Under the pieces are notes generated by a model. That model searched no databases, was not told the DNA's origin, and saw only the letters and a program-made list of their open reading frames with translations. A DNA stretch of 64,000 bases from Paramacrobiotus metropolitanus. Taxonomy: Eukaryota > Tardigrada > Eutardigrada > Parachela > Macrobiotidae. Shown piece by piece: positions 540 through 64,000 of the stretch (positions within the stretch are counted from its first letter, which is position 1; every line of letters begins with the position of its first letter). Made by a program: the position numbers and the translations under genes. The stretch covers positions 372,001-436,000 of the forward strand of contig NW_026570323.1 of NCBI RefSeq assembly GCF_019649055.1. Direction: 5' to 3'.

Positions 540-3500
540 ATGTCTCAGAGTTCGACACTCTCCTCCATCTCATGGTCAGACCGTCGCGGAGGAGTCGAGA
601 AGATCGCTGACTGCATGAAAGAAATGTTAGCCCGTGGAGAATCGAGCGATGTACAGTTCGCGATAGGACGCAGCTATGGCGCAGCGCAGGTCTTTCCAGC
701 TCACAAGTGAGTGCTCGACACTGGCTTGTGCCATATCGTTCTGTAACTGATGGAAATCTTTTTTTTGCAGACTGATCATGAGTGCCCGAAGCAATGTCTT
801 CCACCAGATGTTCTATGGAGCTCTGCCAGAGAAGTGCACGGCTCCCATCGACATTCCCGACATTCTCCCTGATGCATTCGCTAACATGCTCAGTTGCTGA
901 ACATGCTGAACAGTGTAGCTGAAGAAAAGTACATCACTTGTAGGTCACAGCATCGCTGATAATTATAGTACTATGCTTTTACTATAGCATTTCTTCTGAT
1001 AAGATTCTTCACATTGCACGCATACGAACATTCTGCAGTTATATCTATACCGATGCCGTGAAAAGTCTAAGTGAAGATAACGTTTTTGAGACGTTGAACT
1101 GCGCCGATAAGTACGATCTGCCATCGCTAGTGGACACGTGCACGCGCTTCATCCTAAGCCAACTCAAAACGGCGAACTGCCTGCAAGTTCTGGATAAGGT
1201 TGGTTCTTGTTACTTCTCATACGTTTGGCTGTGCTTGCTGCCACAATCTCCGCTTCGTCCCTATATTTCTTCGCATCTTGCTTGTTATAGGCGGTTCAAC
1301 AGTCATGTGCGGCGCCGGTCATCAAGGAGGAGTGTTTGCGTCTGATCGACGTGTCCGCGGGGACTATCTTGCAGTCGGATCAGTTCTGTGCCATCGGACA
1401 AGAAGCGCTGCGAAGTATTCTTGAGCGGGATACGTTTGACGTCGACGAAACTGCCATCTACTCATCGCTTGAAAGGTAGAAGTACTGTAATTTCAAAGCA
1501 GCTAATTGCTTTTGTTGGCGGTCTGGGGGGCGGTTCACTGTCCCTTAAAATTTAAATTTGAGGAAATGCAGTACATACTGTATATCATATTATGCATCTA
1601 TTTCGAACTCGGCGATGCCATGTACAGTAATTTGCTGTAGTAAACTGCATGTTACCGTGCCTCCCAAATTAGACGTGCCCTGCTGTTTTATGAAAAAAAA
1701 GACGCCGTCCCGAACTTATCGTCCGGGGCGCCTCAGTCACTTTCTGCGCTTCCGGTTTGTAGGTGTGCCGTACAGTTGAAATGGTACATGGTGCTAGCAA
1801 GTAAAGTACTACAGGTAAGTTGAAATATTAAACACCCTCTGTGGTTTTGAGCGCCCCTCCACGCTCTCGGAGAGAATACAAACCCAAGGCGTTTGGTATC
1901 TAATGTACGGTAGAACAGGGCGTTCTTGATTTGCCCCAGCATTTGTTCGGTGTGATGATTATGTTCGGTATGTGTGATGAACATTATCACTGTCGCATTG
2001 CTCCGCAGGTGGGCTGCGTATAACTGCAGCCAAAGGAACATCGATGCATCGTCCGTCAACCGACGGGAAGTGTTGGGCGCTGTGCTGTATCTTGTTAGAT
2101 TTCCGCTACTGACAGATGCCCAGTTACTGGACGGGCCGGCTAAGGTACGTAGTAACGAGGGAGATACCCGAACACGTCCGCGTCAGATCAGCATACACTT
2201 GGTACCATTAGAATCCTTAGAATTTCAGCTATTTTCTTTGATAATCAAAATACCCCCAAGTAAAGAACTCGAGTTTAGGGATCCCTGAGAAGCCAGCACA
2301 GATATGATGGCTGATTTCCATCGAAACGTCAGCAGACGCCATACAGAGCTATACGGCGCGCCTGTACGGATGCGAGATTGCGCAACCGTCTTTCAGCGAA
2401 GTTAAATAGCGCTTTATCGATAGCTATCGCAGTTTTTTAACTCATTAAGCGCAGCAGCATCGACTAGCTGCATAGAGATCAATGCAACCGCGGATGCTGT
2501 GCGCGCGATAGGGCAAAATGGGTGAGACAGCCGTCAACAAAACCAATACAGAATCAACAGATTGCAGTCAGACTGTGCGTAACGCATGGCGTATCTAGGC
2601 TGGACAATGCGTACGGCGCCTGCTGACGTTTCGATGGAAGTCAGCCATCATATCTATGCTGGCTTCTCAGAGATCCCTAAACTCGAGTTCTTTATTTGGG
2701 GGTGTTTTGATTCTCGAAGAAAATAGCTGAAATTCTAAGGATTCTGATGGTACCAAGTGTATGCTGATCTGACGCGGACGTGTTCGGGTATCTCCCTCGT
2801 AAGTAGTACGTAATCAAGTACGACATGACTTTCCTCAGGGCCAAATAAACCGGAGCTCGGACTGAAGCCACCTCGGAGACAAATGACAACCATACACGAA
2901 ACGAAATATTTATGTTAGTGTAGACTGGTTTGTTATTGCAATCGGAAGCATGGGACATCTTTAACTACAAGCACGCCGCCATTAAACCGCAGCTCCCGTT
3001 TCCTGTTGAACCCCGACAAAGTTAGCGTGTTCATACGTTAAAATTAAAATTTCCATTTGCGTCTAATATTCCGCCGGTTCCAGGTGCGCGCTCTGGCGTT
3101 ATTAATTATACGATTCCGGATCTGAGGATGCTAGACGTTGCATGCATACTTAGCGATCCAGTAACGGTTAAGAAATTGTCCTGGTAAGCCGATGGCCCGG
3201 TAGTCTTCGCTGGTGCAGCGAATTTTGTTAAAAGTCTACAGCGGAGTCTTTTTACAGGCGGATCTCGGTTTCAGTTACGCCGATGCCGCCGCATGGTGTT
3301 CGTTGTTTGAGTTATTTCCTGCAGTGTGAGGGTAATCCGGAATCGCTGGTATGGACGTCGCAAATTAAAGGGGAGCTGCGTGTGCTGCCGTGGAAAGCAG
3401 AAATTGCACCTGTTAAAATACGTATGTTGATTTACTGTAGTCCTCTTGATATCAATCGAACACACGATTACTGAATTGTTCGTTGATTATTAAATTGTTT

Positions 3501-4453
3501 GGTATGTGATTTTTAATTAAATAGACTTAATTTTCTAGCCATCTCCCATTTGTTCTCACCCAAAGAACCTCGTGGAGGATTCAACTTTTATATGGAGCTC
3601 ATGGTGAGGTACTACTACAGATAGTACGTTCGGCAGTACTACTTCGATTTTTCTCATATTTCGGTCACTTTAACTTTTTAAGAATACGGTTTCATATTTT
3701 TGGTCAATGTCACTTACAAGTTACTACATCCCAAAGAACACGAATAGCTGCTGATCGCACAGTGTGCTTTGTTATTTGTTTTGCACAGGTCTGTAGTCAT
3801 CAAAACAAAATTAAAAATGTCGAAATTTAAAATATCTAAAATTTACAAAAATGGAAGAGCGGTTACGTTGCACTCGATCCAGTTCCTGCTCTTCAGTTGG
3901 TTATTTTATAGAAATTCCTTTAAATTTATACTTCGAAATTCATGAGTTTTCACTATGAAAACTAATCATTTCTGGGATTTTCGTTTGTCAGCAAAACTTT
4001 ATTTACACCAGGTGACCAAAATATGAAAATGTGCACTTGATGTGACCGAAATATGAGAAAACCCGAAGTACGAGTAGAAGCATGATTATCGCGTCTGCAG
4101 TTGGGAGTACTTTGGTTTTTATTCACTGCTCGCACACTTCAACAACTGAGCTGATGACAACAAGATTGTCAAATCTTTGCTATCAGCGATTCTGCTCAGC
4201 CGACCTGCACTCGCGTAGGCCAAGATCTGACATAATAACTGTAATGATGCCAATAATTTCCACTGTTTCTCGACTACGTCTATACGGAATCGTGTTATAA
4301 CTTCTACATACGCTACAGCGCCGTTGTACGTGATCAAAGTAAGAGTTTGTACTGCAGAAGCTGTTGAATCCGGTGAAAGGTTACGTCAATCCCATGGACT
4401 TCTCGTTGAAACTGCAAGCGGAATTCACTGCTGAGCTTCCGTCTGGAAGCTGA
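540..4453 (+). CDS. BTB-BACK-MATH protein, splice-site lesion in exon 2
   Basis: Likely Cullin-3 E3-ligase adaptor, inferred from domain order. Exons read as 540-706, 771-893, 1039-1198, 1291-1475, 2009-2144, 2924-3020, 3084-3183, 3258-3421, 3539-3603 and 4358-4453, about 430 residues if all are joined. The BTB fold (exons 1-3) shows SSDVQFAIGR, FPAHK and IDIPDILPDAF. BACK covers exons 3-5. Exon 6 is the hinge ending in EPRQ. Exons 7-10 give a MATH/TRAF domain with INYTIPDL, LSYFLQCEGNPES, SHLF and LLNPVKGYV, closest in my reading to the USP7 MATH domain. The start ATG matches the MSxxS start of the paralogs. Exon 2 should stop at CTCAG before a GT, but the sequence reads AG-TTGCTG with a stop at 898-900, so the copy is probably damaged. 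An inverted-repeat element lies in intron 5. AATAAA overlaps the stop codon. Confidence 0.75.
2155..2800. mobile_element. long-arm inverted-repeat element (MITE/foldback) in an intron
   Basis: The left arm from 2155 to about 2340 (starting ACGAGGGAGATACCCG) is the near-perfect reverse complement of the right arm from about 2615 to 2800 (ending CGGGTATCTCCCTCGT). Each arm is about 185 bases and the spacer about 275. It sits inside intron 5 of the BTB-BACK-MATH gene at 540-4453. The hexamer GTAGTA lies just outside both ends but a clean target duplication is not evident, so superfamily is unassigned. It has no coding capacity. Confidence 0.85.
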
Positions 4454-6035: not shown

Positions 6036-8274
6036 ATGTCGCAGGATGCCAATGTACAGCGACGCGGAACTCTTGCTGGCCTCGTCACTTGTATGAGGGG
6101 CATGCTGGCGACTGGTGAACTGAGCGATTTTGAATTCCACATCGGACAGGCTCATGGAGAGATGAAATCGTTTCGCGTACACAAGTACGGCCTTTGATGT
6201 TGACTGTTGAGCAATGTATACGGTGATGAACGTCGGAGAACCGCGGACGTTAGTACCGTTATTTATTAGGTACGTTCTGAGCATGCGCAGCCCGGTTTTC
6301 CGGGCTATGTTCTATGGAAGTATGGCTAAACCCGGGCAGAATACCGAGGATATTCCCGATATTCATCCAGAAGCCTTCGCTAATATTCTGAGGTAACTGC
6401 AAACATATAAATGTATTAATACTTATCTATCTCAAAGCGTTCAGATATGTATGTCTACATGTCGACTATATGCATACCTTTTGTCAGCAGTACGACACAC
6501 TACATTAGAAATTTTTCAGGGCGCGCGAAACGTAACTTTTATTGTTTGTATGCTAATCTGCTCCATGGACTTGACCGGTCATTTCCGGCCTTCGTTAACC
6601 CAGTTAATGGTCTACACTGGCGTCAAAAACGCTTTAAAATTTCAACTAACAGAGATGCAATATTCGTATAACTGATACTGATTTATTTTGAAGCTTTATG
6701 TACACTGACAAAGTGGACGACCTCGACCCCGACAACGCCTTCGCCACATGGGTCGCGGCTGATCGATATGATTTGCCCTTGCTGGTGGAAATGGCTTCCA
6801 AATGCGTCGTGAATACGCTTAACGTCTCGAATTGTTGGTACTATCTGGAGAAAGTTCGTCACGGCTCTAATAAATTATTATTATAGAAAGATCAACGATA
6901 AACAAGAGGACTGCACGCTGGGAATTACTTGCTGCTCCTTTTGCAGACCGGTCGTCTGGCAGCTGACTGTGAGCGTCTGCAGAAGAAGTGCTTGGAATTG
7001 GTGGACGTTCACAGCGATGTCGTTTTCCAATCGAAAGACTGCGATACGCTACCGCTGACTTCTCTGAAGCTGATTCTGGAACGCGATACTTTGACCGCGG
7101 AAGAGAATGTGATTTACCAAGCCGTTGAGCGGTAACCTACAGTTCCTTTTGAACTGAATTTTGGTTTTCGGAAGCCGAGATTATTTACGTCAGATGGCGT
7201 TGTATTAGATGGGCTAGGGCGGCGTGCCTCCGAAGTGACGAAGAACCTTCGCCAGCCATGCGGCGCTCCAAGTTGGGAGATGCTTTGCAACTCGTGCGCT
7301 TTCCGCTTCTCACTGATGTTCAGCTGGCTGAAGGACCTGGCATGGTAAGCTGACCTTTGCTACAGTGTGTATTGTTTGGCATTCGGCTAAGACTAACAAA
7401 TTAATAATCCGGGCGATGAAGGCGACAATCTGGGCGACAGTGTGGGCTATGGGCGTTTTGCTGAATGTCGTCAAGCAGAACATAACCTTCAGGGCGAAAA
7501 AACGTTTTCCGAAAAATTTTACCGACCAAGGTTTTATCCCATATTTAACCGAATGAATTTCAACAACATTGTGGCCGTAATTTTAAAATCCTTTTAATGT
7601 TTTTCGTCGCAACTTTATTAAAGTTAATGATGTCATTGAATGCTGCTAATATTAACTGGTGACCACTCCGTTCGCAGTCTTTCTCTCGGTTTCACAACCG
7701 TCTGAATTATCATTCCTAGTTAAGTTTTCCAGACGGGGACGTTGGTCGGCATACGAATTTTAATCCGTTTCTTGTGTAGACTGGTTTGCTGACCGAACAA
7801 GAGCGCATCACATTCGTTTGTGCAAGCGTCTCGCTAACAAATCGCCGGCCCAGTTCGGGACCAAGCCACGCCAGCACCGAGCCTGGAAGGCCGGCACAAC
7901 TTCATTTCCCGATGGAGAGGAGGTATTTGTTACTCTCTGCGCGGAATCCGTTGTCTGGGAAGCCGCGCGGGTTGCCCGGAATAATGTTTCGCGAGCAAAC
8001 TTAACGGTTGTGTTGCTGGCAAGACAGCCCAGCGGCGACGCAGCGGTTGTACACCGTCCATACGAAATTGTTCGTGCTGGGGATATCCTGCAATCCGGGC
8101 GGGAGGTGCGTGCCAACGTGGGCGAGGAAGACGCTCCCGTCTGGGTGGAAGCCATTTATCAATGCGGGCGTGCATGTCGTCCAACATGACAACCGCGAGT
8201 ACAGCGTCCAGTTCCGGGATATGACTATGCGAACCGGGCAGGTGATGGCCCGGAAAGCCGTTCTCCTGGGATAG
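6036..8274 (+). CDS. BTB-BACK gene with Tudor-like C-terminus, last exon frameshifted
   Basis: Exons are 6036-6184, 6270-6392, 6694-6853, 6947-7131, 7209-7344 and 7780-8274. Exons 1-3 encode the BTB fold (LSDFEFHIGQ, EDIPDIHPEAF) and exons 3-5 the BACK domain (YDLPLLVEM, LVRFPLLTD). The last exon should encode the hinge and a Tudor-like module as in the intact gene at 16407-18652. Its hinge starts in one frame (TGLL), moves to a second frame by about 7810 (RLCKRLANK through DILQSG), then returns to the first frame near 8165 (HVVQHDNREYSVQFRD) to a stop at 8272-8274. These are two opposite one-base shifts relative to the paralogs. Exons 1-5 are intact, so a truncated BTB-BACK product is possible. 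Otherwise it is a young pseudogene, or the assembly has two indel errors. Confidence 0.65.
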
Positions 8275-9703: not shown

Positions 9704-12240
<2,537 letters not shown>

Positions 12241-16406: not shown

Positions 16407-18652
16407 CTACGCAACACTTTTTGCTGCTTTCCATGCCTGAACCTGCTCACTGGCAATCCGCAGATCCCGAAATCTTACAGCATGTTCTCGATCGGAGACG
16501 CGGACGATATACTGGCCAGATGATTCTGAATCATATACTGCTGGGTAAAACACCTTGTCGACGCGCACCAACACCGGCAGACCGTGTTGGAGAATATCCA
16601 CCGCGCGAACAGTTTCCTCTGGGACGGCTTTTTCGGGAACGGCTGTATCTGTAAAACCCGATAGCTCCATATCCACCCGATAGTTTCCTGTAACGATGGC
16701 CGGTAGCCAAAAGCCGCTGACGCATAGCATGAAAATCTTTTCACGGAGGTTGTAAAACGCCTCATCACCAATTGGGCAAACTTCCGCCGCGTATGTCCGC
16801 GGCTGAGTGTTAAAGTCCAGTGGCTTTTCTGTTGCCTTATTTCTCCACATGAAGATGCCACACATCTCAGTGGCACTCAGGAGACCGCTCTACGGTAGAA
16901 ATACAAAAGTTTATCTGAAAGTATCTTTAGCTTCGGGCAGGAAGTAGTCCCGAGAACTTCCCGTGCGGTCGTCCGGTTGGCCACCTGAAGTTAGTAAATG
17001 GGCAATGACCTTTCGATCTGGCTATCGTGAATCAAAATTTCAACTAAAAGTTTTTTCCCGGTTTTTTCTTTTCTCGGTAAGCATAATGTACTCTTTACAG
17101 TTAACGCAGTATTTGGAATCTTTCCAAAAACTTGAACCGATCTCCTGCAACTGCGCCGACGTTAAATACTGTAAATTAAATCAAATTTAAAAAATTTAAT
17201 TACATTTCAAAAGTTTCAGGTACCCTACTATTAAAAAGTACGTTCTGCTTAGCTGGGTAAAAAAACCGGAAGAAAAACGGTTTATAGAAATTTTAATTTC
17301 ATGATGGATAGATCGAACGGCCTTTGCCCATTCACTTACTTCGAGGTCAACCGAACGACCGTACGAGTAGCATTTGATAATTCTTACTTTGACGGGACCG
17401 TTAGCCAGCTGTTCATCGGTCATCAGCGGGAAGCGGACAAGAGAAAACGCTTCTCCCAACACCTTACGGCGATTAAATGCCGATGGGAGCGAACGGTTGC
17501 GCATGCACGCCGCCGTAGCCCACCTACCAAAGCACATTAAAAAGAGCAGTGCACTGTTCTACGCTATATTGAAATGTTGACAAAAAAACCTGAGATCCAT
17601 TAGCAGCTTTCTCAATCGTGCAAGCGCAACGACAGATACTTGCTATAAAATGGATATCCAAGCTAACATTTAAAGGTGACTTACTTTTCGACTGCCTCAT
17701 AGACGGTATTCTCCTCTGCCGACAGGGTACTGCGCTGGAGAATCGTGAATAATGTGTTCTTTCCGATAGCGGAGAAGTTCTCGGATAAAAAAACGGTTTT
17801 ACTGAATTCATCGATGACGTCTAAGCAGTCTTCTAGAAAGCGGTCGCAGTGCGGGCTCCACTTCAGTACCTGTACGATACAACAGCCTGGGTCACTGGTT
17901 AGTTTAGTGTGTCACTGCTCAGAGACCTACATTTTCGAGAATCAACAGGCAGTTATGGGCACTCAGCTGCTCCCGGACAAATTGTTTGCAATATTCTTCC
18001 AGCCACGGCAACTCATATTTTATGGCGCAATACAGAGTTGGCACAACATTTTCCGGTGTCAAACTTGTCATGGTATCAGTGTAAATGTAACTGAAAGCGC
18101 AAAACTGGAACAAATTTGTAATCACTTAGTATTATCAGGACCCCAATCAAAATTATTAACAATCTTAATGACATCAGCGCAACATCCTAACATGACATCC
18201 TAACATCAGCTTAACAGGATTAGAAAGCTGTAGAATCACGAACGTCAAGCGAAATTACCTCAACATGTTAAAGAATGCTTCGGGGGGAATATCCGGAATA
18301 TTAATGATATCTCCTCGTTCAGCCGAATCTCCGTAAAATGTCGTGTAAAACACATCGCTGCTGATACCTAAAATCAGCCTGGAAGCAAAAAGAAGTGTGG
18401 ATCGAAGACGCTTTCCGGTGCGGATTTCCAAGGTCATAATGCAGGTAGTAAAAACGTACACCCTGTACTTTTTACGTACTTGTGGGCTGCGAAAATTTTC
18501 ACTTCGCCGTGATCGCGCCCAACAGCGAGTTCAATGTCGCTCAGCGCACCACTGGCTAAAATGTTCCGGATACGACTGCTGATTGCGGGAACGTAACCCC
18601 GAGCCTCTGCGCTGCCAGTACCGGACAATAATGAGTGCTGCCTTTGAGACAT
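16407..18652 (-). CDS. intact BTB-BACK protein with Tudor-like C-terminus
   Basis: Probable Cullin-3 adaptor. Exons on the - strand are 18480-18652, 18259-18378, 17931-18090, 17685-17869, 17388-17523 and 16407-16889; all junctions are GT-AG and in phase, giving 418 residues. BTB covers about residues 35-110 (LSDIELAVGRDHG, IPDIPPEAF). BACK covers about 115-258 (YELPWLEEY, ending LVRFPLMTDEQL). The hinge follows at about 259-290 (MCGIFMWRNKATEKP). The final 125 residues look like one or two Tudor/Agenet-type barrels: VRAVDILQHG, then VLVRVDKVFYPAV, QYIVRVSDRE and VRFRDLR. The Tudor-like call is from pattern only (YPA, aromatic-acidic strands) and could be another small beta-barrel. Exon 2 is 120 rather than 123 bases. 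It is the cleanest copy of the Tudor-type subfamily. Confidence 0.85.
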
Positions 18653-24267: not shown

Positions 24268-24276
24268 GATTCATGC

Positions 24277-24678: not shown

Positions 24679-26940
24679 ATGTCTGAAAATCCGAAACAAT
24701 GTTCGCACTTAAAAATTCAGGGCAGGGTTGCGAAGATTGGTGATTGCATCAAGCCCCTTTTCGGCTGTACAAAAACCAGCGATGTTCAGTTTGCGGTGGG
24801 ACGCGATTATGGCGCAGCGAAGCTGTTTCCAGCTCATAGGTGAGAAGTAAAAGAGGAGTAAAAAATTTTATTGCATTACTTATTCATGATTAAGTTTTAG
24901 TAAATCATTTCGTTGCTCTTTTTGTAGCTGCCTTGAGTATAACTGACAATATCCCGATATTCGAAAATATTGTTTCCTTTAATCGAAACTGTTTTCGCAC
25001 TTTCGTAAACAAAATTTCAAAGATGATCTCTTATATGCAGGTTGATTATGAGTGTGCGCAGCACAGTGTTCGATACACTGTATTATGGGAGTGTACCAGA
25101 GAACTGCACTGCCCCCATCGATATTCCCGATGTCCTTCCCGAGGCCTTCGCGAATATGCTCAGGTGTGTCTGCATTTGATTATTCTTGCAACGAATAATG
25201 TTCATAAGATTGATAACTTGGCAATTTGTTAAAGTTACATGTACACCGACGAGGTGACGAACCTGACCCTGGATAACGTGTTTGACACGTTGAAGTGCGC
25301 TGACAAGTATGATTTACCGCTGCTGCTAGCAATGTGCACCGACTTCATACTGAGCAAGCTCAATATCACCAATTGCCTGCATATTCTGGACAATGTGGGT
25401 TTTCACGATGCCGAGTAATTATTAAACTAAGCTGTCGAGCAGTTTTGTTTTCTAGGTGGTGAACTATGGAGATGCTGCGCCGAGTATCGTGGAGAAATGT
25501 TTCTGCTTAATTGATGAATCGGCGCTAACAATCTGGCAGTCGGATCAATTCTGTACAATCATTAGATTGTACAGATGCATCATTAGATTGTACAGATGCA
25601 TTAGATTGTACGGATAAAATCATTAGATTGTACAGATGCATTCTGTACAATCATTAGATTGTACAGATGCGTTACGAGCCATCCTTCAACGGGATACTCT
25701 GACAGCTAACGAGGATACCATCTATTTGGCGGTTGATAAGTAAAAGCGCGTCTCTCTGCTGCCGTGTTTGGCGGTGTTTTGACATTCTGTGGCAGCTGTT
25801 CATTAAGTCGTGATATTTTTGTCAGGTGGGCTGTAAACACCTGCAATCAAAAGAATATTGACACTTCCTCCGGTAATCGGCGGGAGGTGTTGGGCCGAGC
25901 GCTGTTTCTCGTCCGATTTCCGCTCTTGACTGATGCTCAGTTGCTGGATGGACCGGCCAGGGTACAGATCATTGCCTTGCTAAAAAAAAGCCTTTTCGTC
26001 TTTGGCGAGTTGAACAGGCCTTCTCGCTCGCCTCGGCCAGACGAAACATAGATCTCATGAATAAACGTCACTTGTGTTTTGGTTTGTTTAGACTGGTTTG
26101 TTACTGCCATCGGAAGTACTGGACATCTATCATTACAAGCACGCCGCCATCAAACCACAGCTGCCCTTCCGTACGGAATCCCGACAAAGTAGGCGCGTTC
26201 ACTGCCAAACATACCCAGTTATCTTTCAGATAACTTTCTATGTAGATGAACGCGCTGAGGGTGTCCTTAACTATACGGTTCCGGATGTCAGGGAGCTGCT
26301 GAAAACGCCCCCGTTCAGCCGGCTCAGACTGTTCAGTGAATCCATAACTGTCAGGAAACTTCTTTGGTGAGGAATCCATCGAAGTGAGAAGCGAAAGTCG
26401 GAGGGTGACGCTGTTGATATGCTTGATTTTGCAGGAGCATTGACGGTGAGGTGGAGAAGAAAACTGACGATCAGTCTGTTACTCTGGGCTTCTTCCTACG
26501 GTATTCCGGTAGCACGACATCGGCGTCCTTGAAGTGCCAGGTTAATGCAGAGTTCCGCCTGCTGCCATGGAAAACGGAAACTGCACCAATCAGCAAACGT
26601 ACGCTTTCTTGTGCGATCATTGATAGACAATCCTAATATTGGCAAAGGTATTCTTAACTTTTGCAGAGACATCCCACCTGTTTGACCAGGCTGACTGTGC
26701 TTGGGGGTACTGGGCTTATATTTCTATGGAGGTAAGTGGTTTTTTCGTAGAACCTTTGGCTGTGCATGGAATGTCAATTCGTATTTCCAGGAATTAATGG
26801 ATCCTGCGAAAGGATACGTCAATCGTAATGACTTTTCCTTGAAGCTGCAAATCAAATTAGCCGCTGACATTCCTGCTGGGATCGAATGCATGCATCGCGC
26901 ATGCGGATGTACCAGCATGAAAAATAGTCATGCGCGCTAA
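24679..26940 (+). pseudogene. BTB-BACK-MATH gene interrupted by a minisatellite with a stop
   Basis: Exons are 24679-24839, 25041-25163, 25235-25394, 25456-25739, 25826-25961, 26092-26188, 26246-26366, 26435-26598, 26667-26731 and 26791-26940, all with consistent phases. BTB: TSDVQFAVGRDYG, FPAHR, IDIPDVLPEAF. BACK: YDLPLLLAMCTDF and LVRFPLLTDAQLLDG. Hinge: LLLPSEVLDIYHYKHAA. MATH: LNYTVPDVRELL, LGFFLRYSG, CQVNAEFRLLPWK, SHLFDQ, WGYWAYISMEELMDP. Exon 4 is 284 bases rather than 185 because a repeat of an AGATTGTACAGATGC unit replaces the QFC-x-IG-x-EAL segment. The length change keeps frame but an in-frame TAA lies at 25615-25617. The C-terminus is also extended beyond the usual GIE end by an extra 17 residues. 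Confidence 0.75.
25551..25670. repeat. minisatellite inside a coding exon
   Basis: Five or so copies of a roughly 20-base unit (TTAGATTGTACAGATGCAT with variants), with CTGTACAATC appearing as the inverted half. It sits in BACK exon 4 of the gene at 24679-26940 and contains the stop codon that breaks it. No other paralog has it. Confidence 0.9.
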
Positions 26941-35192: not shown

Positions 35193-37349
35193 ATGTCTGG
35201 AAATTCCGTGCCATCATCGTACCCAGAAAGCCGCGGTGCGTTCGCGAAGATGGGTGAATGCATCAAACACCTGTTCCTTCGTAGAGAAATGAGCGATGTT
35301 GAGTTCGCGGTGGGGCGTGATTATGGCGTGGCGCAGCTCTTTCCAGCACACAGGTGCTTGCTCAGTTGCTGGTCGAAAACAGTGTGTTAACTCGTCCCAT
35401 GATAATCGCTGTGTGTGTAGACTTCTCTTGAGTGCGCGTAGCGAGGTGTTTCACACCATGTTCCATGGAAGTCTGCCGGAGACTAGCACAGCTCCCATCG
35501 ACATTCCCGACATTCATCCCGAGGCCTTCGCTAATATGCTCAGGTAGTCTGACGTAACGATATTTCGTTGCCAGTGCAGCGAATGTTTCATAACGAGGCA
35601 GCATATCGTACAGCTACGTCTACACCGACGCCGTAACGGATTTCACCCACGAAAACGTCTTCCACACATTAATGTGCGCTGACAAGTACGATCTACCGTT
35701 GCTGGTAGTGCTGTGCACTGACTTCGTCTTGGGCACGCTCAACTCCCACAACTGCCTGCAGATTCTGGACACGGTAAGTTGTATCGATGGTTGGGAGCTT
35801 TTTGCTACACTGAGCGGTTCTGCTTTCGCAAGAACCTGGGTTTTTGTAGGTGATGCACAATGTCCTTGCCTCGCCGAGTATTCTCGAGAAGTGTTTGTCT
35901 TTGATTGATGAATCAGCGACAACCATCTGGCGGTCGAATGAGTTCTGTCAAATCGGACCAGAAGCTCTTCAAGCCATCCTTCAACGGGATACTTTAACCG
36001 CCAACGAACATACCATTTGTTCTTCTGTTACCAAGTAAGCATTCCCAATAGCTTTTTAGAGATCCGGAAAGGTGAGCCTGTTTATCTATGACCGATCAGC
36101 CGTTGTCTTGTAGGTGGGCTACCAACATGTGCACGCAAAAGGACATGGAAGCTTGCTCCGCCAACCTAAGGGAAGTATTGGGCGACATGTTGTATTTAGT
36201 CCGATTCCCTCTTTTGACCGACACTCAGCTGCGGGATGGGCCTGTCAAGGTGCGGTCTTTACCACTAGGGTAGTATATGTAATTGTTTATTGGGCAATAG
36301 CCGCCATAACAACAAAAGTGCAAGCGCGGGCACACTACTTTACAGTTAAAATTTAAACATTAAAAAAACAACCAAAATCTCTATCCATATAGTATATAAG
36401 GATAGAGATAGTATATAAGGATAGAGAGGGTAGTATATATAAGGATAGAGAGGGTAATATATAAGTTTTCAGTTTGTTGGAATTACCCAAAACATGCTGG
36501 AACAAGGCGTGTGTTTTAGAGCGGTTTGTTGCTGTATTCGGAGGCAGTGGACATCTACCTCTACAAGCATGCCATCATCATACCCCAGCTGCCATTCCCT
36601 ACGGAGCCTCGGCAAAGTAAGGATCGTGTGTGCGTTTGATAAAATTGCATCCATGTTTATTAACATCACTTGGTGTCTAGATGAACGCGCTGCGGGTGTC
36701 ATTAATTACACAATTCCCGATATCAGAGAGCTGCAAGAAGCGTGCTCGTATTCGTTCAGCGAAAAGATAACCGTCCGAAAGCTGTTTTGGTAAGTGGCGG
36801 TTAGAGTTGACTGAAGGTGGCCGCGATTGATACGCATCGTTTTGCAAGTCTGTTGGCGCTGGAATGGGCAAACGCGGCGCATCTGCTGTTCTGGAGCTCT
36901 ACCTGCGCTGCAGTGGCGGTTCGAAATTGACTCCCTGGGCGTGCCACGTTAATGCAGATGTGCGCGTGCTGCCATGGAGCAGGGAAACTGTCCCAGTAAC
37001 GAAATGTACGCTCACTTACGTGGTTATTTATGTCTGAGATAACCCAGAATGAAATTCCCCGCAAGTGGTCTTCGAAATTTTTTAGCCTTCTCCCTGATGT
37101 TCGACAAGGAAAAACGCTGCTGGGGCCTAAGGTTTATCACTATGGAGGTCAGGATTTTGTGCGCGGAAAATTTCTGTCTTCTGTCGCAAACGCATAGTTA
37201 CAGGTTGCACACGCACTGTATTCGTTGTTCATATAAGTTTGTCTCCCCAGGAATTACTTGATCCGGAGAATGGTTACGTCAATCCTAGCGACTTCTCCTT
37301 GAGACTGCAAATTCAGGTGGCTGCTGACCGTTCGGTTGGGATCGAGTGA
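35193..37349 (+). CDS. BTB-BACK-MATH protein, one doubtful acceptor
   Basis: Exons are 35193-35353, 35421-35543, 35614-35773, 35850-36034, 36114-36249, 36520-36616, 36681-36789, 36849-37005, 37086-37147 and 37251-37349. BTB: MSDVEFAVGRDYG, IDIPDIHPEAF, YVYTDAV. BACK: YDLPLLVVLCTDF, LVRFPLLTDTQL. Hinge: LLLYSEAVDIYLYKHAI. MATH: INYTIPDIRELQ, LELYLRCSGGS, HVNADVRVLPW, KRCWGLRFITME, LLDPENGYVNPSDFSL. All junctions are in phase except exon 8. The conserved acceptor GCAG reads GCAAG here, which puts exon 8 one base out of register with both neighbours. The gene is therefore probably impaired in its MATH domain unless an unseen alternative acceptor is used. Intron 5 carries an AT-rich microsatellite. 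Confidence 0.78.
36391..36465. repeat. AT-rich microsatellite in an intron
   Basis: Three imperfect copies of GTATATAAGGATAGAGA, with GGG between some copies. It lies in intron 5 of the BTB gene at 35193-37349. No function is implied. Confidence 0.85.
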
Positions 37350-37611
37350 GTGCAATTGCGTGTTTGGACATATGAGATACAGTTTTCTTAGCATCATCAA
37401 GGTTTTCCTTCATTCGCGCATCGAGAAATGGAGTAATCCTTTTGTCTGTTTGATTTTTGTCATTTCTTTGTGGGATATTTTTGGTGACCCTGGAGCTCGT
37501 GAGCTGATCACAGTTAATTAGTCTTCGTTTTTCTGGGTAAATTCGTATGTTTTCACCTTATTTAAGTAAAACTAGTGAAAATAATGTTTCGCGACCGGAA
37601 ACGGTACACAT

Positions 37612-38276
37612 GTGCCCACTACTGTATACAACTGCTCTCCTATGCCTTGGCGGTCGGTAGCGACACCACCAAAGACCAACAAAGCACCAATCTTCCAGTG
37701 GAAGCTTCAAGCTTCCACTTTCGAGTACATAACTCACTTACCGATGCCAGACCGGTCATATGTGCAGTTTGCAAAGAGAGGGCGCCTAAAGGACATTGGC
37801 TCCAAATTACTGTCACTTGGGGGTGATGCTGACGGTGGGTCTGTCTCTCTTGGCGTCTTCCTTTATTGTTATGGCTACCAGAAATCGGACCCTGTGGCAT
37901 GCCAGGCCACTGCTGAACTTTGCCTGCTGCCGTGGAAAATGGGAGTTGCATCGTTTAAGAGACGTATGCACACTGCACATCAATTTCCTTATTGTTAGAC
38001 AAGCTTTGTTACAGTCTATGTAGTGAATCTAGTATCTACACAACGGAGTCTTTATTAAACTTTATCATTTTGCAGAACTATCCCACTTGTTCGATAAGAA
38101 TCCATGTGGCTGGGGATACCCGCAGTTTATCTTTATGTATGGAGGTGAGGTTCTGCGCAGGGAAACCTTTGGCTATCTATTGCTGACATAGGTTGATTTT
38201 CTAGAAAAATCCTTCTGACTCTTCCCTGAAACTGCAAATCCAGATTACTGCTGAACTTCCTGCTGGGATGGAGTGA
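37612..38276 (+). pseudogene. solo MATH-domain fragment behind a BTB-BACK-MATH gene
   Basis: Three segments match MATH exons 8-10: 37612-37963 (IFQWKLQ, then LGVFLYCYG, CQATAELCLLPWK), 38076-38144 (LSHLFDKN, CGWGYPQF) and 38205-38276 (SSLKLQIQITAELPAGME then stop). The second segment is four bases longer than usual before its donor, so the last segment is read out of frame and meets a stop. The last exon also lacks the LLDP-GYVN part. No BTB or BACK exon precedes it. It is a decaying duplicate, or a source of alternative 3' exons for the gene just upstream. Confidence 0.55.
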
Positions 38277-46142: not shown

Positions 46143-46303
46143 CTGTGAGCTGGAAAGATCTTTACCGCGCCGTGATCGCGTCCCACCGCGAATCGAATGT
46201 CGCTCATGTCTTCGCAGAGTAAGATGTCCTTTACACGGTCGGCAACCTTCGCCACTCCGGCGCGACTTTCCGTAGCCGTGGATTGTGCGGAATTTTGAGA
46301 CAT
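46143..46303 (-). pseudogene. orphan BTB first exon
   Basis: A complete 161-base first exon with the family start (MSQNS) and MSDIRFAVGRDHG, FPAHR and a GT donor. It is the right length and phase for this gene family. The next exon that should follow (IPDI block) is absent: downstream on this strand come only MATH exons 9 and 10, which it cannot join in phase. It is therefore the leftover of a deleted or rearranged copy. Confidence 0.7.
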
Positions 46304-47083: not shown

Positions 47084-47425
47084 GAAGCACGAACAAAATG
47101 TAACACTTTTATGAAAAGGCATGGCGACACATGTGACACTTTTAGCCGATGGTTATAGGACTCAGAAAATTGATACGCTTCTGCAGAGAATACGGTGCTG
47201 TATGATACAGTACATACAGTTATTCACCGGTACCACTTCCCCTTTCCATGGTAGCAAGCGGAGCTCCGCATCAGCCTGACATTTCCAGGAGGCCGACTTC
47301 GCACTACCTCCACACCATAAAAAATAGCCCAAATAAGCAGTTCTTGCCTTCGTATGATTCTTGACCAGTATTTTCTTAGAATATAGTCGCACTTCAACTT
47401 GTTTTTCAAACTTCAAATTTGTACA

Positions 47426-47731
47426 AAGCAGCCACGTCTGGCCACTTGAGAATTTGTTCCCAGGAACATGTCGACCCGGAATGCGAGTTCTGTACAAGCG
47501 TAGTCAGCATTACCACTCTAAACGGATTACGGACTGCATAGACACCGTAAGAGCTTGGTACGGAAACTTCACTGCAAATATAAGCCCAGACATTCTGGTC
47601 GTTTCAAATGCATTGGAATTCTCTTAATCCTGTTCGCAATATATGTACATAGTTGGCCGGTGTACATTGTGTGCGCTCTAAAATATTTTTGCGTGAATTG
47701 TGTTACTGTACTCTCTGCAACAGCAGTCAGA
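47426..47731 (+). promoter_or_regulatory. duplicated upstream block of the cysteine-rich genes
   Basis: This block matches 44279-44584 (AAGCAGCCACGTC, CACTTGAGAATTTTTTCCC-type start, GCGTAGTCAGCA, TACCACTCTAAACGG) and ends directly at the start codon in both copies. It is presumably promoter plus 5' UTR of each gene; the role is inferred from position only. Confidence 0.5.
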
Positions 47732-49042: not shown

Positions 49043-51295
49043 TCACTCAACGCCAGCAGGACCGTGAGCAGTAATCTTCACCTGGAGCTTTAACGCGAAC
49101 TGTCCCGGACTGACATATCCCTTCTCCGAGTCCAGTAAATACTAACGAACAAATTTAAATAGACAATGTTTATCAAGAATTTCGATCACCTAAGACAGCT
49201 AACCTGGAACGAGATAAAGTCCGGGTATCCAAAGTCAATCACTTTCTGGCAAAACGCATGGGATAAAGCTGAAGCATAAACATTAATGTGACACTATTAC
49301 GAAAAAGTTAGCCACTGGTTTAATGAGGCTCATAACACTGATACAAGCAACACATACAGTTCTTAACCGTTGCCACTCCCTCTTTCCATGGTAGCAAACG
49401 GAGTTCCGCATCGGCTTGGCACTTCCAGGAGGCCGACTTTGGGCTACCTCCGCACCATACAAAATAGCCCAAATACGGGGATCCTTCCTTGATGTGCTTC
49501 TTAACCAAAATCCGCCTACAACATAATCGTACTTCACAGTTCACACACGTTTTCGTGATTTCAGCGCTTCCACATCTCCCTGCGGCTCACCAAGGCAGCT
49601 TCCGGACTGTTATGGGATCGCTCAGCGTGTGAGTCTCATCCAGCTTCCTAATATCCGGAACCGTGAAATTAATGATACCCTCAGTTCGCAGGTCATCTGA
49701 CAAACAGACACGATTAAACAATTTCTAAATGATCGTGAATTTAATCATCATGGTAGGCTAACTTTGTCGGGGCACCGTGCAGAACGGCAATTCCGGTTTG
49801 ACTGCGGCGTGCTTGAAACGGACGATATCCAGTAGCTCCGAATGCAGCAACAAACCAGTCTGGACAAACCCCAAAAGATGTTAAAGAATTATGCCATCCA
49901 GGCACTGCCTGCATCCGTCTCGAGCGAATCAAACGATCGCGCTATTCTGATTATTAACGTCGTAAAGATCAGTACTCTAATCGCACCTCAGCAGGGCCAT
50001 CCATCAGCTGTGCCTCCGTTAAGAGCGGGAAGCGGATAAGATGCAACGCCGGACCCAGTATTTCACGCCGATTGACGGCAGAAGCCTCCATATTCCGCTG
50101 CTTGCAGGCACTACTAGCCCATCTGCCAACGACGGCAGGCGGCTCAAAATACTACCAGTATGACCATATTTTACAACCAGCGTGAAGCTCGAGATTCTGC
50201 AATTAAGCCTGCTTCGATAGTTAAAATTCTTCGGCAGACGCAAGACGGTGTAGTGAAACATTTCGCAGTCTCACAGCGCCAGCACTTCCGTTACAACCAC
50301 AATTTTTGTCCACAAAGTACACGTATTGCAGATGTACTGCAGATACAGTTATAATACGAGAACTAGCGAAGAATTCGTACTTACTTTTCGACCGCCCAAT
50401 AGATAGTGTCTTCATCCGCAGCGAGCGTGTCTCGCTGCAGAATACTCTGTAGCGTCTCTTGTCCGAGGGCCAAGAAGTGATCCGACAGCCAGATACCTTC
50501 CGCCGATTCATCGATCAGACGTAGACACTTCTTCGTGACACGGGGTGCTGTACATTTATGACGAATGATCTACGAGTACAGAATCCATAAATTTAATAGT
50601 AAAACCGCTCACGGCAACGGAAACTGGGCCAAACTGTCGAGGAAGCCAACCTTCTCCAGATGTTCCAGACAGTTATCCGTGTCGAGATTATCCATGATGA
50701 AGCGGGTGCACTTTTCCATCAGCGATGGTATGTCATACTTGTCAGCACAAACGAGTGTTTGGAATACGTTGTCCTTGCTGAGAGTCTTCACGGTATCCGT
50801 GTAGATGTAGCTACACCAACAACAGACTGCGTTGTTTATAAACATGCGCTGTATTTCCAGGAGGCAATGCTCAAGAATATACTAACCTGAGCATATTAGA
50901 GAAGGCGTCGGGAAGAATATCCGGTATATCCACGGGAGCTGCACAGTTCTCCGGTATACTTCCAAAGAACATCTTGTGAAACACATCGCTACGGGCACCC
51001 ATGATGACTCTACAAAAATCAATGGAATCCAGCACACTGCCAAGAGCAGAGAATCATCATCCACGGACCCCACCACGGCAGCGTAGAGCAGTTGCCACCG
51101 TAGTTATGGGTTGCATGAACAACAGAACAAGCACCTGTGAGCTGGAAAGATCCGCACTGCGCCATAATCACGTCCCACGGCGAACTGCACATCGCTCATG
51201 TCGCCACAGGCCAACACCTGTTTCATGCACTCGGCAAGCTTAGTGGCTTCGCCACGGTTACCTCGGTCGGGGGACCCCATGGAACTTCGAGACAT
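49043..51295 (-). CDS. intact BTB-BACK-MATH protein
   Basis: Probable Cullin-3 adaptor, 429 residues. Exons are 51135-51295, 50887-51009, 50651-50810, 50385-50569, 49987-50122, 49763-49859, 49591-49696, 49358-49515, 49204-49268 and 49043-49141; all junctions are GT-AG and in phase. BTB: MSDVQFAVGRDYG, FPAHR, VDIPDILPDAF. BACK: YDIPSLMEKCTRF, RDTLAADEDTIYWAVE, LIRFPLLTEAQLMDG. Hinge: LLLHSELLDIVRFKHAA. MATH: INFTVPDIRKLD, LGYFVWCGGSPKSASWKCQ, AELRLLPWK, SHAFCQK, FGYPDFISFQ, LLDSEKGYVSPGQF. An upstream M-S-R-S-S start is preferred over the inner Met because it fits the family. It lies next to the second cysteine-rich gene, mirroring the damaged copy beside the first. Confidence 0.88.
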
Positions 51296-52529: not shown

Positions 52530-52537
52530 CGACATAC

Positions 52538-53649: not shown

Positions 53650-53656
53650 GACAAAG

Positions 53657-54389: not shown

Positions 54390-54396
54390 GACAAAG

Positions 54397-59307: not shown

Positions 59308-61085
59308 TTATTCGTGGGCTGCCTTCCACGCCGCGCCCACTTCTTTGGGCAGCACCATCTCCTCAACCTTGGCGAATCTCTCATTTCCGTCGACTTCCAC
59401 CACGTGCTGACCTCCGCGGTAGTGGCAGTAGGTAGCCCCGACCAGCATTCCCCACAGAAGCGGTCGTAACTGAAGGCCCCGCTGCAGAACATCCGCCGCA
59501 CGGATCAACCTCTCCACCGCTATGGGACCTTCCCAGCGCGTGTGCAACCACCGACCGACACATTTCCCTCCTCGCTCTCCGATTACTTCTGCCGGGTACC
59601 AGTAGCCGTCGCCGTTGTATTCTTCCACAAAAATAGCCTCTTTGTCTTTAAAAACGACGTCTCCAATGCGGTGCTGCACGAAGCGACGCGGTTCAGTCGC
59701 AAAGGGCAGCGCCGGCTGCTCCGTGGTGTGCTTGTACAGGTAGATATCCCACAGCTCCGGTGGCAGCAGTAATTCATTCTTAACCGAAAAAGTACAACAC
59801 TTTTGGATTCGCAATTTCGCATATATTGCGCGAACTGACTCAATATAAACAGGATCTTCCTCAAAACATTTTCTGAAGGTTACGTAGGTTTGTTTTCTGT
59901 AACCGCAATGCAAACACAAAAAGGCGGGCGCATGCGTCTACGTCGACGATGCATCGTATATTCGCACTGCTATCATATCGTGCTTCTAATGCGTACATAT
60001 TTACCTTGACAGGACCGCCGGCCAGTTCGGCATCGGTCAGCAGCGGAAAACGAACCAAAAACAATGCATCGCCTAGCATCTGACGCCGGTTGGCGGTGGA
60101 TAGATCCATATTGTGACGTTTGCATTCCCCGGCAGCCCATCTGCAGCAAGTCAACTTTCGCTGCACACTGTGCGCGGTAACCCTCACCATACGCAGAATG
60201 TCAAAAACGCTATCTGCAACAACGTTCCTCATCAGCCGGTTTAATCCGCGCTTGGTCTTACTTCTCGACGGCTTTGTAGATGACGATCTCGGGTGCCGCC
60301 AGTGTCGGGCGCTGGAGGATCATTTGCAGGCTGTCTAGGCTCAGCGCAGTGAAGGGCTCCGATTGAAAAACGGCTCCATCCGAAGCGTCCACCAGATCCA
60401 GACATTTCTCCACAATGCTGTCGAAATCCGGGCTCCAGCGGTTGGCCTACAGAAAATAAATTACCGAACCAAAAGTGCCATCGTCAATATGATCAGCTCA
60501 CGTTTTCCAGCGTGATCAGACAGTTGTCGGTATTGAGATGGTGCAGAATGTATTCACAGCAACGGTCCATCAGCACTGGTAAATCGTACTTATCGGCACA
60601 GCGCAAAGTGGGAAACACGTTCTGCGCATTGAAATCCTCCACGGAATCGGTGTACACATAGCTGTCAAAACGCAGTACTTATTGAATGATTCGAGATGAA
60701 TACGGGCTACAGGCCCACCTGAGCATGATAGCAAAGGCTTCCGGAAGAATATCAGGAATGTCGATTGGCTCTTGAGTACTGGCGGGCATACTCCCGTAGA
60801 ACATAGTATGGAACACATCGCTGCTCAGGCTCAAGATGTTCCTACAAGGTTTTCAACACACTCAACTCAAGAATGCAGCCTGGGAAAGTGGCGATGTTCG
60901 TGCAGCAGTGTAACGTACTTGTGTGCCTGGAAGATCTTTATTTCCCCGTCATCGCATTCCCGTCCCACGGCAAACTGCACATCGCTCAACTCGGCAAGGG
61001 ACAAAGCACGCTTCATGCGGTTGGCCAATCCAACCACTGCGCCACGACGTTGTAAATGCGCACGAGATGTTGAGCTGTGGGACAT
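59308..61085 (-). CDS. intact BTB-BACK protein with Tudor-like C-terminus
   Basis: Probable Cullin-3 adaptor, 413 residues. Exons are 60919-61085, 60719-60841, 60502-60661, 60262-60446, 60005-60140 and 59308-59778, all GT-AG and in phase. BTB: LSDVQFAVGRECD, IDIPDILPEAF, YVYTDSV. BACK: YDLPVLMDRCCEY, KCLDLVDASDGAVF, LVRFPLLTDAELAGG. The last exon reads from the hinge (LLLPPELWDIYLYKHTTEQP) straight into the C-terminal module without the intron found in MATH-type genes. The module has GDGYWYPAEVIGERGG, AADVLQRG, a GATYCHYRGGQ strand pair and VEVDGNERFAKVEEMVLP. This suggests one or two Tudor/Agenet-like barrels that may bind a modified or basic peptide, inferred from pattern only. Sister of the damaged gene at 62317. 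Confidence 0.87.
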
Positions 61086-62316: not shown

Positions 62317-64000
62317 TCAGTTGTTGGCCGCCAACCACGCATGGACCACCTCTCCAGGCAACATCAGATCCTCCGACTTCACGAGCCTCTCCCGGCCATG
62401 GGCTTCCACCACATGCTGCCCCCCGCGCCGGCGAATGTAGGTCACCCCGTCCACCATTCCTCGCACGAGTAGACGCACCTGTTGGCCGCGCTGCAAAATA
62501 TCCGCCGCACGGATGAGCTTATCCGACGCTCGGGTACCTTCCCACCGCATCGACTTTCTCAGTCCCCGTACGACAACTCCCCATCCTCCCCATCCGATCA
62601 CCTCTGCTGGATAGCTGTCGCCCCGGCGACCTTTCACAAATACCATCTCGCGATGCTTGAGCGCCAACCTCCCGACGCGGTACTTCGCATAGCGGCGTGG
62701 TTCAGTGTTGAAGGGAAGTGCCGGCTTTTCGGTGGTGTGCTTGTATAGGTAGATGTCCCACAATTCCGTTGGCAGCAGCAATGCATTCTGAAGCAGATCA
62801 ATATAAAAAACCCTTCGAAGGTTCTGGCATTTTTATAGACGATAATTCACAAGAAACAAAGTTGGCACCGCAGATGCAGCATAAAGTTTATACCGTAAAT
62901 TGACTCCACGATATAAAACCGTTTTATAGGCTAAGCTGCTTAAAGCGTATCCGTAATGCCAAGGTGGGTTGTACCTTAACAGGGCCACCGGCTAACTCGG
63001 TATCCGTCAGCAGCGGAAAACGAACCAGAAACAATGCCGTGCCTAGCATCTCACGCCGGTTGGCGGTGGATGGATTTACTTTCCGGAGTGTGCAGGCCGC
63101 GGCAGCCCATCTATACAACCGCGAAGCAGACGTTTAAGCACAGCTGAAAATTCGTTTCTCCCGGCACACCGGCCTGTTCAATCAATCAATCGCCATCTCT
63201 ACAAGAGACTTGTCACGATTTTGTCACTCACTTCTCGACGGCTGTGTAGATGACATTCTCCGGTGCCTCCAGTGTCGGGCGCTGGAGAATCATATGCAGA
63301 CTCTCATGGCTCAGTGCTGCGAAATGCTCAGATTGGAAGACGGCTCCGTCCGAGGCATCAATCAGATCGAGGCACTTCTCCACAATACTGTCGAAACCCG
63401 GGCTCCAGCGGTTAGCCTGCAGGGAAAAAATATCAGCTACCCGCACAATGAAAGACAAGTTGCGTGACAAATATGATACGACTTACATTGTCCAGCGTTA
63501 TCAGACAATTGCTTGCATTGAGATGTTCGAGAATGAACCCGCAGCAGTGTTCCACCAGCAGGGGTAAATCATACTTTTCAGCGCAGTACAAAGTGGAAAC
63601 ACGTTCTGCGCATCCAGGTCATCCACGGAATCCGAGTAAACATAGCTATCCAAACGCAGTACTTGATAAATTTTGCTGGAAATTACAGCCTAAAAATACT
63701 GGTCGCCCACCGGAGCATGTTAGCAAAAGCCTGGGAAGGGATATCAGGAATGTCGATTGGGTCTTGGGTGCTGTCGGCCAAACTCCCGTAGAACATGGCG
63801 TGGAAGACATCGCTGCTTAGACTCAGGATGTTCCTAAAACCGTTTCCTGATACTGAATTCAACTTATGCGTGTATTGGGCTATCTAAGACAGCGGCAGTT
63901 GCTGGTGGCGTCGCTACTTACTTGTGTGCATGGAAAATCTTCACGTCGCCATGTCAGTGCCATGATCGCGTCCCACGGCGAACTGCGCATCACTCAACTC
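62317..64000 (-). pseudogene. BTB-BACK-Tudor-like gene, cut by window end, two frameshifts
   Basis: Sister of the gene at 59308-61085, with exons 62317-62787, 62975-63110, 63232-63416, 63487-63645, 63711-63833 and 63922 to beyond the window. The last exon has the same 471 bases and an intact module (LLLPTELWDIYLYKHTTEKP, YPAEVIGWGGWG, AADILQRGQQ). BACK exons 4 and 5 are intact. Exon 3 is 159 instead of 160 bases: one base is missing after NVFP, shifting the frame through the rest of the exon. Exon 1 shows a short insertion around CATGGCACTGACATGGC that shifts frame before the FHAHK equivalent. Two lesions make it a pseudogene, although its C-terminal half looks untouched. Confidence 0.75.

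Follow-up and report, generated by a model that had tools for sequence, protein, structure and literature searches.

How did the genes of one cluster in the tardigrade Paramacrobiotus metropolitanus come to share a BTB-BACK scaffold and to end in different domains? The cluster lies in a 64-kb stretch of contig NW_026570323.1, here called the window, and its relatives were sought in the whole genome (169.8 Mb, 533 contigs). A CAHS segment used as a query matches this genome at 1.1e-67 with 66% identity, in keeping with a tardigrade. The answer we consider probable is that these genes form a greatly expanded BTB-BACK family derived from a BTBD1/2/3/6-type gene, with replaceable tails after a hinge exon, a MATH tail that came from the tardigrade's own USP7 gene, and Cullin-3 targeting that would be set by the tail.

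Scaffold and hinge exon in the window

The repeats in the window were found by all-frame translation and self-comparison, in which exon-sized peptides recur, and the spliced gene models were built from the DNA. Nine loci carry scaffold exons. Five of them are of the MATH type (A, D, E, F and G) and four of the Tudor type (B, C, H and I). The window also contains an orphan first exon and two partial MATH tails. In the list below the exons are numbered e1 to e10 and e6 is the hinge.

540..4453, + strand: locus A, BTB-BACK-MATH; e1 540-706, e3 1039-1198, e4 1291-1475, e5 2009-2144, hinge e6 2924-3020, MATH e7 3084-3183 to e10 4358-4453; e2 is without the usual donor frame
6036..8274, + strand: locus B, BTB-BACK-Tudor; e2 6270-6392, e3 6694-6853, e4 6947-7131, e5 7209-7344, hinge and tail about 7780-8274, both broken by frame changes
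16407..18652, - strand: locus C, BTB-BACK-Tudor, all exons open; e1 18480-18652, e2 18259-18378, e3 17931-18090, e4 17685-17869, e5 17388-17523, hinge and tail 16407-16889
24679..26937, + strand: locus D, BTB-BACK-MATH; a repetitive insertion interrupts e4; hinge 26092-26188, e7 26246-26366, e8 26435-26598, e9 26667-26731, e10 region from about 26790
27794..30683, + strand: locus E, BTB-BACK-MATH, ten open exons; 27794-27960, 28203-28325, 28397-28556, 28629-28813, 28901-29036, hinge 29882-29978, MATH 30045-30147, 30214-30377, 30447-30514, 30585-30683
29882..29978, + strand: hinge of locus E as an example, 97 nucleotides (nt), with a phase-1 donor (GTTAGC) directly after PRQ
35193..37349, + strand: locus F, BTB-BACK-MATH; hinge 36520-36616; the e7/e8 join loses the frame
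37585..38276, + strand: partial extra MATH tail downstream of F, without a hinge; e8-like 37779-37963, e10-like 38205-38276
46143..46303, - strand: orphan first exon (e1); scaffold exons were searched for downstream and none was found
47165..47503, - strand: partial MATH tail downstream of G, without a hinge; e8-like 47218-47342
49043..51295, - strand: locus G, BTB-BACK-MATH, ten open exons; e1 51135-51295, e2 50887-51009, e3 50651-50810, e4 50385-50569, e5 49987-50122, hinge 49763-49859, MATH 49591-49696, 49358-49515, 49204-49268, 49043-49141
59308..61085, - strand: locus H, BTB-BACK-Tudor, all exons open; e1 60919-61085, e2 60719-60841, e3 60502-60661, e4 60262-60446, e5 60005-60140, hinge and tail 59308-59778
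62317..64000, - strand: locus I, BTB-BACK-Tudor; e2 63711-63833, e4 63232-63416, e5 62975-63110, hinge and tail 62317-62787; the frame of e3 is broken and e1 extends to the window edge

The original prediction counted six MATH-type and four Tudor-type loci. The four Tudor-type loci were recovered, whereas a MATH-type hinge was present in five loci and not in six; the claimed sixth can only be a partial MATH tail or the orphan first exon. Its description of the exons was borne out by the spliced models. Exon sizes and phases are common through the BACK domain (e2 123 nt, or 120 in locus C, e3 160, e4 185 and e5 136) and the hinge is shared. In all five MATH-type loci of the window the hinge is exactly 97 nt long, is entered in phase 0 and is left at a phase-1 donor after PRQ. 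The same length was observed in 30 of the 33 MATH-type hinge exons modelled genome-wide. In the Tudor-type loci C, H and I the hinge exon reads past the MATH donor point to a stop 468-483 nt from the exon start, and the hinge of locus B also continues into a Tudor tail, with frame breaks. Since the identical exon set recurs across the genome on many contigs, the window pattern is not a product of chance.

Every exon is open in just four loci, E and G of the MATH type and C and H of the Tudor type. The remaining loci are disrupted at the e2 donor (A), in the frame of hinge and tail (B), within e4 (D), at the e7/e8 join (F) and in the frame of e3 (I), and these disruptions stem from mutation or assembly error. 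All four open models gave Pfam matches above cut-off to BTB (E 4e-18 to 4e-22) and BACK (6e-9 to 1e-12). The MATH domain, at about residues 299-419, is C-terminal and not N-terminal to BTB (residues 25-138).

The MATH tail and the USP7 gene

The MATH domain of locus G matched the Pfam profile above cut-off (3.6e-10), while that of locus E gave 9.4e-7 and 29.6 bits against a cut-off of 32. The PDB MATH chains nearest to locus E were those of USP7 (best 6.6e-11). We looked for the USP7 gene of this genome with a human USP7 MATH query. The best match was on contig C62, where an acidic N-terminal exon is followed by four MATH exons and then by USP7 catalytic exons. This gene is the genome's own USP7.

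The exon upstream of MATH in USP7 ends at a phase-1 donor, which is the phase of the hinge donor (the junctions were read directly). Counted without USP7 itself, the e7/e8 intron lies at the USP7 alignment column in 33 of 34 tails, the e8/e9 intron in 31 of 34 and the e9/e10 intron in 20 of 35. The fourth MATH exon of USP7 ends with GGA GTT TG and the donor GTAAAT, so that reading through gives the codons TGG TAA. The last exon likewise measures 99 nt and stops at this read-through codon in 26 of 33 tails (e.g. GGA ATC GAA TGA). With local USP7, human USP7 and human SPOP as references, the tails showed identities of 41-57%, 23-33% and 14-26%, respectively, and local USP7 was the nearest of the three for all 36. 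The USP7 motifs LPW, GYFL.C and SW.C.A.AELRLLPWK recur in the MATH tails.

The tail could also descend from another MATH gene, SPOP-like or older, with an exon structure that agrees by chance. The MATH domain is old and widespread, and the place of USP7 in a tree of MATH tails is weakly supported. However, such an origin would leave the nearness of all 36 tails to local USP7 and the recurring motifs to coincidence, along with two intron positions that agree in nearly all tails, the entry phase and the coincidence of stop and donor. A MATH-like match near a BTB match at C46 lies in a single 99-codon stretch, a different exon structure. We regard an origin outside USP7 as very unlikely and continue with the tardigrade's own USP7 as the source.

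The likeness to the TRAF-like (MATH) domain of USP7/HAUSP thus covers sequence, intron positions and entry phase. The difference is that the cluster MATH sits on an adaptor scaffold and that of USP7 on a protease. The MATH-BTB proteins (SPOP and the C. elegans BATH proteins) also combine MATH and BTB in one protein and have undergone lineage-specific expansion. In contrast to them, the cluster proteins have the reversed order, with MATH after BACK, and their MATH domain is of the USP7 kind and as distant from that of SPOP as given above. USP7 contacts P/A/ExxS motifs through D164 and W165 (excerpt of PMC7419626). Of these two residues, the tails have mostly kept W (an equivalent of W165 in 24 of 35) and mostly lost D (an equivalent of D164 in 4 of 35). 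Because of this loss, the specificity of the MATH tails has probably shifted from the P/A/ExxS motifs of USP7.

The canonical BTB-BACK-PHR gene and the MATH donor

Contig C183 carries a canonical BTB-BACK-PHR gene of the BTBD1/2/3/6 type, and its introns around e2-e6 match the cluster in position and phase. Its hinge exon continues past the homologous 'PR' into the PHR domain. The hinges in front of C2H2-like, Arg/Gly-rich and Pro-rich tails, found elsewhere in the genome, likewise continue without a donor. Since the canonical hinge continues, the continuing hinge is probably ancestral and the MATH-type donor was probably gained rather than lost in the Tudor type. The earlier idea of donor loss in the Tudor type is thus given up, as a gain is simpler. 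The proposal that the swap point is an exon boundary holds for the MATH type, where it falls exactly at the hinge end.

The cluster proteins resemble BTBD1, BTBD2, BTBD3 and BTBD6 in three ways: they have BTB and BACK, their hinge is homologous to the sequence with which the PHR exon begins, and their introns agree in position and phase with those of the PHR gene in this genome; the PDB chain nearest to the scaffold BTB is that of BTBD6 (1.1e-17). They differ in that the four cluster proteins scanned gave no match to the PHR domain (PF08005) at E up to 1. Moreover, a 2005 survey (excerpt of PMC1257465) counted four to seven BTB-BACK-PHR genes in a metazoan genome, a number far exceeded by the present family. 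On C183 the canonical PHR gene stands head to head with a C2H2-like scaffold gene (L060/L061, G000:C183:99500-112500), and this pair is a possible birthplace of the family.

Tails on the hinge across the genome

A 31-residue hinge consensus was used as a query and the best 150 of 307 candidates were scored. Among these 150 hinge exons, 49 overlap matches of a Tudor-tail query (best 150 of 343 candidates scored) and 54 precede matches of a MATH-tail query (176 exon matches). The remaining 47 were read singly and comprise 16 Tudor, 8 broken Tudor, 5 PDZ, 4 Arg/Gly-rich, 4 Pro-rich and 1 C2H2-like tail, 3 hinges that have the MATH donor and no intact tail, and 6 cases that are short or could not be assigned. 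The commonest tail among the best 150 hinges is the single-exon tandem Tudor module. Two C-terminal modules had been described from the window; across the genome the hinge carries at least six kinds of tail besides PHR, among them tandem Tudor, MATH, PDZ, Arg/Gly-rich, Pro-rich and C2H2-like.

The PDZ tails match Pfam above cut-off (1.3e-7 and 2.8e-6), and in each of the five loci their exons follow the hinge at a distance of 0.5-1.2 kb. The C2H2-like fingers are below the Pfam cut-off (2.9e-3), as are those of a relative at C77 (8.4e-5). In L072 one more hinge continues into about 155 residues with no Pfam match. We also looked for donors of two of these tails. Other PDZ genes are 31-52% identical to the PDZ tails and none stands out. 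At C77 there is a similar finger pair without a hinge (59% over 89 residues), and its DNA similarity to the C2H2-like tail is confined to the finger-coding part. L071 (G000:C109:437000-438750) has a MATH-type hinge and donor, but the place of the MATH exons is taken by a long open reading frame (ORF) that, as judged by eye, resembles a gag-like protein of a retroelement.

The original prediction called the single-exon tail Tudor-like. The fold found support in two predicted models, while a sequence-family match did not appear. Pfam gave no significant Tudor or Agenet match; the Agenet profile hit 4 of 26 members, all below cut-off, with a best E of 0.074. A PDB profile search with the tail returned no Tudor, and hhalign of the tail against 53BP1 and FMR1 segments did no better than controls. 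The AlphaFold model of the H tail, with a predicted local distance difference test score (pLDDT) of 46, had the 53BP1 tandem Tudor as its best match (Foldseek E 3.8e-3, Z 9.5 over 99 residues). The independent model of the C tail (pLDDT 72) also matched 53BP1 best (Foldseek E 2.4e-4, Z 11.1, 102 residues, 2.6 A), and the two tails are 29% identical. We accept the predicted tandem Tudor fold for this tail, with two barrels packed as in 53BP1. The likeness to 53BP1 thus lies in the predicted fold of both repeats, and the difference in the cluster tails being without a significant sequence match. An origin of the Tudor tail from PHR was considered and dropped, as the hhalign signal was not above controls (single-sequence profiles, a weak test). 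A 396-codon ORF in L041 (G000:C11:1321960-1324400) holds a Tudor tail and a BTB match and is possibly an intron-poor or retrocopied member.

For several tail cassettes no scaffold exons were found upstream: L068, L010, L011 and the two partial MATH tails of the window (37585-38276 and 47165-47503). They are candidates for alternative 3' ends or relics. They also bear on the possibility that tails were replaced mainly by recombination in the e5/e6 intron, or are alternative 3' cassettes used by splicing, and were not captured after the hinge. Each tail type brings its own hinge with a phase-0 acceptor. The L068 cassette of hinge and PDZ stands behind another PDZ gene, with 0.5 kb between them that is free of scaffold exons. 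Hinge and MATH are present in L010 and L011, and no scaffold exon was found in the 2.3 kb searched upstream. The partial MATH tails in the window stand behind F and G. However, the cassettes may be relics, and the first MATH capture requires a boundary after the hinge because the donor is exactly there. This route as the main one seems to us rather unlikely, and capture after the hinge is preferred.

A possible single MATH origin on the scaffold tree

A scaffold tree was built from e2-e5 of 58 of the 81 candidate genes. The other 23 had too few standard exons and were dropped (11 MATH-labelled, of which one is USP7, 8 Tudor and 4 others). In the maximum likelihood tree 25 of the 26 MATH types form one clade (100/100) and L016 alone stands outside. 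Forcing all 26 together costs 0.87 log-likelihood units, with p values of 0.57 and 0.60 in the approximately unbiased (AU) test. The original prediction had allowed for MATH and Tudor types mixed in such a tree. The clade of 25 speaks against mixing, and repeated exchange between MATH and Tudor is not supported, since the stray L016 joins the MATH clade at that small cost. One MATH origin would be enough for the scaffold tree.

The other tails are arranged differently. Three PDZ types form one clade (99.4/100) among the Tudor types and two Arg/Gly-rich types group together (97.1/99). The C2H2-like gene falls within a Tudor group, together with four Tudor genes (98.5/98), and the Pro-rich gene stands beside L036, a Tudor gene on the same contig (97.3/99). 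The AU test rejected a clade of Tudor only (p 0.015, and 0.006 in another run), of Tudor plus Pro-rich (0.018) and of Tudor plus MATH (0.0056), and did not reject one of Tudor plus C2H2-like (p 0.116). Since the Tudor-only clade is rejected, at least one other tail, the C2H2-like one, arose on a Tudor-type background. On this tree the C2H2-like tail would have replaced a Tudor tail. The tree also favours, without proving it, a nesting of the Pro-rich and PDZ types among the Tudor types. Its outgroup sits on a long branch and its root is uncertain.

Putative Cullin-3 contact motif and constraint

The BTB motif phi-X-(D/E) contacts Cul3 (excerpt of PMC6484134). In our proteins it is kept in 22 of 27 MATH-type members, in 16 of 21 Tudor-type members (one unparsed row was entered as a miss), in both PDZ members and in the one other member, and it is absent from the single Arg/Gly-rich and the single C2H2-like member (0/1 each). 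The authors of the 2005 BTB survey expected that PHR would serve a Cul3 complex as its substrate module (excerpt of PMC1257465). The scaffold is under constraint and the tail evolves faster. In 131 MATH pairs the median omega was 0.22 for the scaffold and 0.34 for the tail (tail higher in 121), and in the Tudor pairs 0.19 and 0.42 (tail higher in 7/7); the pairs overlap and are hence non-independent. Cluster proteins acting as Cullin-3 substrate adaptors, with the tail setting the target, would be the best-supported mechanism, and we infer every functional step of it.

Instead, BTB-BACK might be only a dimerising platform, with tails (Tudor, RGG, zinc finger) that bind chromatin or RNA and no link to Cullin-3. 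The Tudor, C2H2-like and Arg/Gly-rich tails suggest binding of nucleic acid or methyl marks, and part of the family, like the canonical PHR gene, lacks the Cul3 motif. This is countered by the motif counts in the MATH and Tudor types, by the BTB that is closest to BTBD6 and by the expected role of PHR as a Cul3 substrate module. We rate the platform as unlikely, though a serious contender, and prefer the adaptor function.

Proposed explanation

The proposal builds on what was observed, namely the exon structure, the tail kinds by sequence, the tree, the USP7 correspondence and the slower evolution of scaffold than of tail. The constant part of the genes would run through e5 and on into e6 as far as the PR that closes the hinge, and the part behind it would be replaceable. 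The MATH tail would have been captured as genomic DNA from the tardigrade's own gene for the deubiquitinase USP7. A phase-1 donor would have arisen, or been joined, just after the hinge, and the four USP7 MATH exons would have been spliced on with their introns kept. The stop would have been supplied by reading into the intron where USP7 splices its fourth MATH exon onward. PDZ, C2H2-like, Arg/Gly-rich and Pro-rich tails would have been added in other copies. In the protein, the BTB dimer would bind Cullin-3, BACK would position the tail and the tail would bind the substrate, so that a change of tail would lead to ubiquitination of a different protein.

A number of observations weigh against this proposal. 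Every splice junction was inferred from DNA, and the exon finder sought template phases only, so the agreement in phase among tails is partly built in (the USP7 junctions were inspected by eye). By alignment, 15 of 35 tails depart from the e9/e10 position of USP7, as their e9 ends eight columns later; at the USP7 position a usable donor is present in locus E as well. In the SPOP-rooted MATH-tail tree USP7 is placed, weakly supported, inside the tails and close to wG, L011, L012 and L016, so the capture is not dated and more than one capture is allowed. The models behind the tandem Tudor fold (pLDDT 46 and 72) were each made from an alignment of three sequences, and the sequence profiles gave no significant Tudor match. 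PDZ exons were assigned by downstream proximity. The phi-X-(D/E) motif is missing in 5 of 27 MATH-type members, in 5 of 21 Tudor-type members and in the canonical PHR gene (0/1). Some of the loci may be uncollapsed haplotypes, so that both haplotypes of a locus may have entered the counts. Finally, five of the nine window loci are disrupted.

The last two points also bear on a reading in which the cluster is mostly pseudogenes or an assembly artefact and the mix of tails is noise. Parallel matches were found on the contig pairs C251/C103, C302/C103 and C94/C319, which suggests uncollapsed haplotypes or recent block duplication; L033 and L034, for example, are 94% identical, and two matches on C182 (133046 and 143696) have equal scores. 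Nevertheless, four window loci are open in every exon, exon sizes are conserved over many contigs and omega is well below 1 in both scaffold and tail. We consider such noise highly improbable and retain the expanded adaptor family.

A wider reading is put forward tentatively, with more doubt than belief. The recognition domain of a deubiquitinase would have moved with its introns onto an E3 adaptor, and the hinge would be a standing docking point for new modules (tandem Tudor, PDZ, zinc finger and disordered tails), possibly as alternative 3' cassettes. Clients once spared by USP7 could then be tagged for destruction instead, and the tardigrade would have in this family a set of fast-diversifying degradation receptors.

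Relation to known families

BTB families that expanded in single lineages are known already, as are ligase scaffolds that carry a variety of C-terminal domains, such as TRIM. The TRIM scaffold consists of RING, B-box and coiled-coil and is unrelated in sequence to BTB-BACK. Like the cluster, the TRIM family joins one ubiquitin-ligase scaffold to exchangeable C-terminal recognition domains (excerpt of PMC2533329). What sets the present family apart is that its BTB-BACK scaffold combines a fixed exon join with several recognition tails that are unrelated to each other, a MATH domain in reversed order and a traceable USP7 origin. In the open-access literature we found no description of BTB-BACK-MATH, -TRAF, -Tudor or -PDZ, which does not establish absence from print. 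Excerpts of the tardigrade literature on BTB expansion offered one table row, a BTB/POZ group of 27 proteins (PMC5531438), and nothing on a BTB-BACK family with tails swapped after the hinge.

Expanded ubiquitin-adaptor families usually vary one recognition domain, and here one scaffold bears several unrelated ones. With a fixed join exon and a donor gene, USP7, that can be named from intron positions, domain capture becomes testable at single-exon resolution. The tails may be seen as natural designs for re-targeting a Cul3-type scaffold. They also prompt one to ask which proteins a tardigrade degrades through so many receptors. If USP7-derived receptors still bind some USP7 clients, one module would serve both the removal and the addition of ubiquitin.

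Other features of the window

Two similar pairs of cysteine-containing ORFs lie at 9707-11322 and 31294-32457 (both - strand), one with a long Gly-Thr repeat; the two ORFs scanned from these pairs had no Pfam match. Similar stretches at 44665-45123 (+) and 47569-48147 (-) form an inverted pair, and the cysteine-rich ORF in the former gave no Pfam match. Between loci C and D, at 19425-22219 (+), lies a frameshifted element like those without long terminal repeats (non-LTR-like), with reverse transcriptase in two overlapping frames. Its two Pfam RVT_1 matches (1.2e-6 and 2.1e-6) each cover part of the profile and are just below cut-off.

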